This document shows, in pieces, positions 41,466 to 45,127 of a DNA stretch of 64,000 bases. The notes beneath the pieces were generated by a model, which saw nothing but the letters and a program-made list of their open reading frames with translations, did no database searches and was not told the DNA's origin. The stretch is taken from the NCBI RefSeq assembly GCF_014199685.1, contig NZ_JACHNZ010000001.1, positions 62,001 to 126,000 of the forward strand, read 5' to 3'. Source of the DNA: Sphingosinicella soli (GTDB lineage Bacteria; Pseudomonadota; Alphaproteobacteria; Sphingomonadales; Sphingomonadaceae). Each line of letters opens with the position of its first letter. Within the stretch, counting starts at the first letter, position 1. Both the position numbers and the translations under genes were made by a program.

Positions 41466-41505
41466 AAAAAAACGGGCGCTGCGGATTGGAAACCCGCAGC
41501 GCCCG
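41466..41505 (-). terminator. Intrinsic terminator after the PEP-CTERM gene
   Basis: On the minus strand CGGGCGCTGCGG, a 9-base loop and CCGCAGCGCCCG form a perfect 12-pair stem followed by seven T. It ends the PEP-CTERM transcript 22 bases after its stop. Confidence 0.9.
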
Positions 41506-41526
41506 CTTGTTCTTTGCTGCCGGTTC

Positions 41527-42204
41527 TCAGGCGCCGCGGCGGCGACGCGCGAGGCCGAGACCTGCAAGACCGAGGCCGAGAAGCGCCAGGGTGGCGGGCT
41601 CCGGAACATCGACGGGATCGGGATCGGGATCGGAAAGCACCGCCGTGAAGCCGATGTTGTTGAAATCGACCTGGTTGTTGCTGCCCGTGAGATAGGCATT
41701 GACGTAGCGGACGTTCGTGGGGAACGCGAGCGCGTAGTCTTCAGGCGTGATCGGCGTGCTGTCGCTGCCGGTGAGGTTGCCCAGAACGGGCGATTCGGTC
41801 AGTTCACCGACCAGCGCCCAGGCGTCGTCGTAGAACGTGAACACGATCGTATCCACGTCGTAGTTTTCGCTGTGATAATTCCAGAAATGGAGGGTGCTGA
41901 GATCGTATTCAGCGCCGAAATCGAACACGAGTTCGAGCGGGCCGCCGCTTACCCATACGTGCGTCGACTGCGTGTGCAGTTCGCCCGACGTCGCCGTCGG
42001 GGCATCGATAATGCTGGCGAGCGATGCTGCCGTCGTGCGGTTGGCGAAGGGTTCGGGATCGCCCGCATGCGCCGCGCCCAGCGTTACCGTGACGCCCGCT
42101 GCGTCGTTCAGATAGACCGGCGCCGCCGTCGCCGCAGCCGAAACGCCCAGTGCCGCCCCAAGCAGGGCCACCCTTGCAATGTTTTTCGAAACGAATGTTC
42201 TCAC
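41527..42204 (-). CDS. PEP-CTERM sorting-domain protein
   Basis: 225 residues from a GTG at 42202-42204 (VRTFVSKNIARVALLGAALG). A signal peptide ends at ATAAAPVYL. The mature part is beta-rich with a segment LELVFDFGAEYDLSTLHFWN, resembling a discoidin/galactose-binding-like fold. The C-terminus is a textbook exosortase signal: VPEPATLALLGLGL, hydrophobic stretch, ARRRRG. Such proteins are exported, processed by an exosortase and tied to exopolysaccharide. A sigma-54 promoter precedes it and a terminator follows, so it is a separate unit placed between the MoxR and VWA genes. Confidence 0.92.
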   Translation of the reverse strand: MRTFVSKNIARVALLGAALGVSAAATAAPVYLNDAAGVTVTLGAAHAGDPEPFANRTTAASLASIIDAPTATSGELHTQSTHVWVSGGPLELVFDFGAEYDLSTLHFWNYHSENYDVDTIVFTFYDDAWALVGELTESPVLGNLTGSDSTPITPEDYALAFPTNVRYVNAYLTGSNNQVDFNNIGFTAVLSDPDPDPVDVPEPATLALLGLGLAGLGLARRRRGA

Positions 42205-42259
42205 GCCCACTCTCCCATTATCCGCAAACACGCCGGATCGGCGCTCCGCGATGAAGGGA

Positions 42260-42275
42260 AGCAAGGTGTGTGCCA
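42260..42275 (-). promoter_or_regulatory. Sigma-54 (RpoN) -24/-12 promoter of the PEP-CTERM gene
   Basis: On the minus strand TGGCACACACCTTGCT fits the consensus TGGCACR-N4-TTGCW. The GG at 42273-42274 and the GC at 42261-42262 have exactly ten bases between them. The predicted start of transcription is about 45 bases before the GTG start codon. Confidence 0.75.
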
Positions 42276-42394
42276 TTTTTTCAAAACGGAAAGATACTGG
42301 CGAGTCGGCAGTGTTTTCAAGCGAAGCGGTCGTTTCGCTTTGTAAACATTTCCGACACTTTCAACGATTCTATACGCTTGTAAGGTAAAGCAGC

Positions 42395-44121: not shown

Positions 44122-45066
44122 TTAATTCGCGCCGCCGTTTTTTGACTTGCGACGGCGCCACGCGAGAAGGCCGAGACCCGCCGCCACGAGGCCGAGCGTC
44201 GCAGGCTCGGGAATGTCCGCGCCGGTCTCCGGGAACGCGAAGTTTCCGCCGTAGTTCGGCAGGTGAAGCTCGCCGCGAAGCTGCACGGCACTGGCCACGA
44301 CGCTGCCGTTGATCGGCGTGACGTTCCTTACCATCGCGAGCGGTGCAACCACAGAACCCCACGTCTGATCGAGGAAGCTCACTTCGGTCGCTTCGAAGAA
44401 GTTCCAGATGATGTTGTCGGCAAGCGCATTGCCGGCGGCTTCCCAGCCCTTGAAGTTGATGGCGGTGCCCGCGACGTTGATGATGATCGTGTCGATATCG
44501 CTGGCCGACGATGCAAATTTGATCTTCCCCGTGTTCGGGAAGAAGTCGGCCGACAGCGAGATCACCGAAACGCCGTTATCGCCCGGAACCGCCGGTGCGA
44601 TGAGGAACCCGTTCATGTGGTCGCCGGGGCTGTAGCGATCGTAGCTGACGCCCGCGTCGAGCGCGGCGAGATCGGCTGAAAACTGTACGAAATCGGATTG
44701 CTTGAGCGTGCCGCCCGGCAGGTCCGCGAGGGCCTTCGTGCTGCCGCCGCCGCCCTGATAGTCGATCGAGGGCGAAACGCTGCCGCCGACATAGGCGTCG
44801 CCGCGCTTTACCTTCGCGTTGTTGGAGACGTTGCCCGTGACGACGAGGCTCGCCTTTTGGGCGTTCGTCCCCTTGGAAGCGACCTGAACCGCCCCGGCGT
44901 TGTAGTTGCCGTCGACATAGACGGCGCCTTCGATGTCGCTGGAGAGCTTCACATCGCTGAAGACGATGAGGTTGTAATCCTTGAGGGCCTGGATCGGGCT
45001 GGCGGACGCAGCGGAGGCGGCGAGCGTCAGGGCTGTAACAACAAGGGTGCCGAAAGCGGTTTTCAT
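44122..45066 (-). CDS. Choice-of-anchor A domain protein with PEP-CTERM signal
   Basis: 314 residues from ATG 45064-45066. A signal peptide ([20 protein letters not shown]) precedes an extracellular domain starting [20 protein letters not shown], with [33 protein letters not shown] and WGSVVAPLA, the pattern of the choice-of-anchor A family of surface proteins. The end is [19 protein letters not shown] followed by RRRKSK, an exosortase signal. Function in the family is unknown (surface adhesion or matrix is usually supposed). It lacks the sigma-54 promoter seen before the other PEP-CTERM gene and sits directly downstream of the rpoD terminator. Confidence 0.9.
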
Positions 45067-45097: not shown

Positions 45098-45127
45098 AAA
45101 AACGGCGGACGCCGCTGCGCCCGCCGT
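45098..45127 (-). terminator. Intrinsic terminator after rpoD
   Basis: On the minus strand ACGGCGG, a 12-base loop with further pairing, CCGCCGT, then TTTT. It lies 41 bases after the rpoD stop and before the PEP-CTERM start. Confidence 0.75.

Follow-up and report, generated by a model that had tools for sequence, protein, structure and literature searches.

How is the gene for a PEP-CTERM protein of Sphingosinicella soli switched on, and does its promoter belong to a regulon that is already known? We addressed this question for a gene located within a 64,000-nt stretch of genomic DNA, hereafter the window, and the features found around the gene are collected in Table 1. Inspection of the protein product reveals an N-terminal signal peptide, and the PEP-CTERM domain at residues 199–223 scores 34.8 bits with PF07589 and 28.6 bits with TIGR02595, against cut-offs of 20.7 and 16, respectively. 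The intergenic region preceding the gene spans 190 nt, and because a terminator-like hairpin ends the gene on the other side, the gene is likely to form a single-gene transcript.

Table 1. Sequence features at and near the two PEP-CTERM genes of the window
Feature	Position	Strand	Basis
Intrinsic-terminator-like hairpin directly past the stop codon of the PEP-CTERM gene	41470..41508	-	hairpin search
Gene for a PEP-CTERM protein of 225 aa, starting at GTG; coordinates include the stop codon	41527..42204	-	profile match
Predicted transcription start	42249	-	geometry of -24/-12 promoters, 12 nt past the C in the -12 GC
-24/-12 sigma-54 promoter element TGGCACACACCTTGCT (Haft motif 2)	42260..42275	-	pattern, weight matrix, orthologue conservation
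Sigma-70-like match TTGAAA-18-TATCTT (rival promoter)	42291..42320	-	pattern; -10 not kept in orthologues
Box-like sequence GTCGGCAGTGTTTTCA, inverted, one mismatch, between box and promoter	42304..42319	+	pattern search
Predicted PrsR-binding enhancer box GTCGGAAATGTTTACA (Haft motif 1)	42341..42356	-	shared-box alignment, PMC1569441, orthologue conservation
Second PEP-CTERM gene (L011), choice-of-anchor A adhesin type (TIGR04215 / PF20597); neither box nor -24/-12 element	44122..45066	-	profile match
Terminator-like hairpin in the gap separating rpoD from the second PEP-CTERM gene	45102..45127	-	hairpin search

The original prediction placed a sigma-54 promoter motif, with GG and GC ten bases apart, on the minus strand ahead of the GTG start, and this is indeed what we find at 42275–42260. 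In TGGCACACACCTTGCT, the ten bases CACACACCTT lie between the GG and the GC, and 55 bases separate the element from the GTG at 42204. The element agrees with the pattern TGGCACG-N4-TTGCW at 11 of the 12 specified positions, departing from it at one, and scores 17.7 bits, out of a maximum of 18.3, on a sigma-54 weight matrix. Because this matrix was set from general knowledge of −24/−12 promoters, its scores are only relative; the counts of exact patterns are independent of it. On both strands of the window, TGGCACACACCTTGCT is the only site matching TGGCAYN5TTGCW, for which 0.09 occurrences per window are expected by chance in simulated sequence of the same dinucleotide make-up. Across the 3.76 Mb genome, the exact pattern TGGCACN5TTGCW occurs 13 times, compared to 5 occurrences of the reversed control pattern; four of these 13 sites precede PEP-CTERM genes, and five lie within a cluster of flagellar genes (contig C28). 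Given the typical geometry of such promoters, we infer that the transcript begins near the position listed in Table 1.

The decisive part of the regulatory element, however, is its upstream half (42356–42341), which the original prediction had missed. Alignment of the regions upstream of PEP-CTERM genes shows a common box, GTCGG-N5-TTTACA, of which GTCGGAAATGTTTACA is the window's copy. Among 167 proteobacterial PEP-CTERM genes, 99 have been described as preceded by a two-part element of this kind, in which motif 1, 17 nt in length with TTTACA at its end, is followed by a spacer (mean 62.8 nt, s.d. 10.6, range 32–92) and then by a sigma-54 motif (Haft et al. 2006, PMC1569441). In the same study, the element was reported only in Proteobacteria, its phylogenetic profile was found to equal that of PrsK, PrsR and PrsT, and the link of PrsR and RpoN to the PEP-CTERM element was put forward as a general prediction (PMC1569441). 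Both halves are recognizable here: GTCGGAAATGTTTACA has the form of motif 1 (17 nt, TTTACA at the end, upstream of the gene) and TGGCACACACCTTGCT that of motif 2 (GG at −24, GC at −12), and the 65 nt between the box and the −24 element lie near the published mean of about 63 nt and within the published range. The distance from the motif to the start is about 55 nt, compared to the published mean of 71, and the intergenic region falls just below the usual length of more than 200 nt. Nevertheless, nothing of substance differs, the single-gene transcript (likely in the present case) and the regulators encoded in the genome being the same, so that our observations add a further genus, Sphingosinicella, and a further gene. 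Box and −24/−12 element together were found in none of 150 simulated windows.

Between the two halves, on the opposite strand, GTCGGCAGTGTTTTCA could be a second PrsR site or a chance match, and carries little weight because one-mismatch box sites number 60 genome-wide. In Sphingomonadaceae, a TTAACCATCG-like stretch recurs between the box and the −24 element (for example, at L130 and L142) and is perhaps a further protein-binding site, such as one for a bending protein.

The original prediction also placed the gene under the control of PrsK-PrsR and RpoN, as a distant member of the regulon. The first part of this claim is supported by the PrsR box, by conservation in orthologues, and by the presence of both rpoN (226.9 bits) and prsR (699 bits, cut-off 502.6) in the genome. 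PrsK, PrsT, an EpsB-type glycosyltransferase and exosortase A (TIGR03109, 322.5 bits, cut-off 208) all exceed the curated cut-offs as well, and the first three are encoded on contig C58 side by side with PrsR, which combines a receiver domain, an AAA+ sigma-54 interaction domain and a Fis-type helix-turn-helix in the architecture of the NtrC family. The second part does not stand. A scan of the genome for the motif, proposed along with the original prediction, yielded the two-part promoter upstream of 9 of the 13 testable PEP-CTERM genes (the PEP-CTERM model has 15 matches, and L008 and L014 are too close to a contig end). The carriers are the gene under study (L002), L003, L005, L006, L007, L009, L010, L012 and L015, with a degenerate −12 element in L005 and a degenerate −24 element in L015; no box plus −24/−12 pair was found upstream of L001, L004, L011 and L013. 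Because the pathway genes are encoded and most testable PEP-CTERM genes share the promoter, the gene is, judged by its sequence, an ordinary rather than a distant member of the already known PrsR/RpoN regulon.

The same pair occurs at other places in this genome, which marks further candidate members of the regulon. Reading frames that lack PEP-CTERM follow it in three cases: the gene for a 92-residue secreted protein behind the PEP-CTERM gene L006 (L100, G000:C1:251638), the gene for a 175-residue glycine-rich protein with a Tat-like signal (L119, G000:C31:36813), and a short frame ahead of a glycosyltransferase gene (L117, G000:C9:71180). It is also found before a region at a distance of 3 kb from the gene for the exosortase. 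The box at C2:69012, similar in sequence to the G002 box, precedes a coding stretch and has no visible promoter.

Conservation of the element was examined in relatives, and the planctomycete relatives (L053, L054) were left out of the footprinting because Haft et al. report the element only in Proteobacteria. The orthologues in two Sphingosinicella genomes (G004 and G003) keep both elements, with spacings of 65 and 66 nt, and their alignment shows two prominent blocks, GTGTCGG..TTT.CA and TTTTGAAAA.ATGGCA.A..CTTGC. The strict two-part pattern is present in 33 of 60 Sphingomonadales genomes, in which the reversed control pattern has zero matches. Promoter and prsR occur together in 30 of these genomes, the promoter alone in 3, prsR alone in 9 and neither in 18 (Fisher p = 3e-6, uncorrected for kinship); here and below, the co-occurrence counts include related genomes that are not independent of one another. 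The 2006 prediction thus extends to Sphingosinicella, with the exact promoter now supplied, and because the two-part pattern is so specific, with no reversed-control match in the genomes searched, it can serve as a probe that maps the PrsR regulon genome by genome.

Variants of the arrangement were seen as well. Four Sphingosinicella genomes contain a box, a 53 nt spacer and TGGCCC..TTGCT (L146 at G004:C1:1144908, with similar sites in G001, G002 and G003), followed by about 190 nt of apparently non-coding sequence and then, as judged by eye, a TetR-like gene. In G007 and G021, which have no recognized PEP-CTERM genes, a box and a −24/−12 element spaced by 43 nt (L128, L134) precede the gene for a small conserved protein, about 85 residues long and containing hydrophobic stretches.

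Taken together, these findings translate into a model, to which we assign a probability of roughly 0.92, whereby the PEP-CTERM gene is read from a PrsR-activated sigma-54 promoter and its product is sorted by exosortase A. Under this model, the promoter would be unable to fire alone. The membrane kinase PrsK would sense a signal and phosphorylate PrsR, oligomers of which would bind the box and be carried by DNA looping to the RpoN-RNA polymerase waiting at the −24/−12 element 65 nt downstream. ATP hydrolysis would then open the promoter, and transcription would begin near 42249 and stop at the hairpin at 41508–41470. Exosortase A would process the secreted product at the PEP-CTERM tail, and the product would then reach the surface or the matrix along with exopolysaccharide. 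The signalling, box binding, looping and ATP-driven opening are proposed on the strength of the architecture of PrsR and the literature.

Co-occurrence and the literature are the grounds on which PrsR is assigned to the box, since other activators of the NtrC family are encoded in the genome. There are at least six sigma-54 activator-type proteins besides PrsR, and one of these, such as NtrC, NtrX or a flagellar regulator, could in principle activate the promoter. However, the box is common to other PEP-CTERM genes, and box and prsR co-occur across genomes, so that activation by a different enhancer-binding protein appears very improbable. A similarly slight chance attaches to the idea that the main promoter is the sigma-70-like sequence at 42320–42291, with the −24/−12 match being secondary. 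Although TTGAAA-18-TATCTT agrees at 9 of 12 positions, two sigma-70-like matches are found in a 3.85 kb region for which 0.6 are expected by chance, and the TATCTT of the −10 does not persist in either orthologue, both of which keep the box and the −24/−12 element.

It is hardly conceivable that the protein is translated from an ATG at 42276, in which case TGGCACACACCTTGCT would consist of codons and the promoter match would be accidental. The reading frame does stay open back to this ATG, but the GTG at 42204 is the start that suits the signal peptide and the GGAG ribosome site, the chance expectation for the pair of box and promoter is near zero, and the orthologues retain the −24/−12 element despite their differing start regions. 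Accordingly, TGGCACACACCTTGCT as coding sequence was rejected on conservation; the ATG also lies upstream of the predicted transcript start.

Activation by PrsR would not extend to both PEP-CTERM genes of the window. The second one follows rpoD and a terminator-like hairpin, and in the 600 bp upstream of it the best sigma-54 score is 8.3, inside rpoD, with no box at up to two mismatches. The original prediction had held that this gene lacks such a promoter, and the contrast it drew at the DNA level is right because neither promoter half is present; the two proteins would then be made under different conditions.

A PEP-CTERM gene for which dependence on RpoN has been measured is pepA of Aquincola tertiaricarbonis RN12, an RpoN1-dependent gene with a mapped start site and the −24/−12 element TGGCAC/CTGCTT that is tied to floc formation (PMC9850573). 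The two cases are alike in that a PEP-CTERM gene has a −24/−12 element; the organism and the protein are different, and the dependence on RpoN is predicted in the present case.

Use of the two-part pattern as a probe exposed a candidate small RNA. Several Sphingomonadaceae that have prsR and no TIGR02595 match contain a single two-part promoter without a sense reading frame behind it. The strict promoter pair is present in 100 of 250 Sphingomonadaceae genomes, with no match of the reversed control, and by a loose text criterion a CUGGUCUC-like motif lies downstream of 56 of the 85 promoters read. Conserved hairpins with a CUGGUCUC loop, placed immediately after the two-part promoter, were seen at loci L127–L216 of Sphingomonadaceae other than the window's genome (for example, L151:1604-1666, L182:135-200 and L172:1606-1673). 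With E allowed up to 0.1, a covariance model built from 22 sequences has 46 matches among the 85 loci; one locus accounts for two of them, on opposite strands. Of the 46, 43 begin 2–48 nt, mostly 7–9 nt, past the −24/−12 element. In these matches, 95.8% of the cells pair normally, compared to 84.8% in shuffles, and compensatory changes affecting both sides are seen in 9 of the 10 stem pairs, more than in any shuffle; both comparisons are biased towards the structure because the alignment was made to fit it.

A search of 60 genomes with the model only is an independent test of the association between the RNA and the promoter. It yielded ten matches at E below 0.001. Of these, six lie in genomes where the promoter pattern had missed the RNA (G007, G011, G013, G021, G023, G034), and each of the six copies is preceded by a −24/−12 element that ends 6–10 nt before the RNA and is spaced 64–65 nt from a box containing one or two mismatches. 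All ten RNA-bearing genomes have prsR (Fisher p = 0.008, uncorrected for kinship). The RNA is present in 7 of the 8 genomes with prsR and without TIGR02595, as opposed to 3 of the 31 with both (p = 6e-5, uncorrected for kinship). Even where TIGR02595 finds no match, a PEP-CTERM gene of diverged sequence can be present: in both G023 and G030, the promoter is followed by what looks by eye like a PEP-CTERM protein. The hairpin thus seems to be a candidate small RNA controlled by the PrsR two-part promoter. Quite probably, PrsK-PrsR and RpoN also drive this RNA, which would usually be found in prsR genomes without a recognizable PEP-CTERM gene and may be the principal target that these genomes have kept.

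Rfam 15 contains no family for the hairpin RNA, the matches at the element being weak and far below the gathering scores, and a title and abstract search of the open-access literature found no matching published small RNA, either with PEP-CTERM or in sphingomonads; on both counts, the RNA is apparently undescribed. GlmY of the GlrR regulon is a sigma-54-dependent small RNA. Qrr1 is another (PMC10162802). The hairpin RNA resembles both in being a small RNA at an enhancer-dependent sigma-54 promoter, as predicted here, but it has a PrsR box and a hairpin of another kind, and it matches no Rfam family. Its CUGGUCUC loop is similar to an anti-Shine-Dalgarno sequence and, as a conjecture, could pair with ribosome-binding sites (GGAG). 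If the RNA is real, PrsK-PrsR would act post-transcriptionally too, and the physiological role of this widespread, little-studied system would become directly testable in cultivated sphingomonads.

The covariance model found no copy of the hairpin RNA in the window's own genome or at the tested PEP-CTERM loci; weak matches in Sphingosinicella G001, G003 and G004 were rejected, being without a promoter and looking like terminators or chance. In the window's own genome, at C22:14533-14650 (L118/L144), the pair CGGCACGCCGCTTGCA has a spacer of 86 nt; downstream of it comes a terminator-like hairpin but no plausible frame, and this region is possibly a different small RNA.
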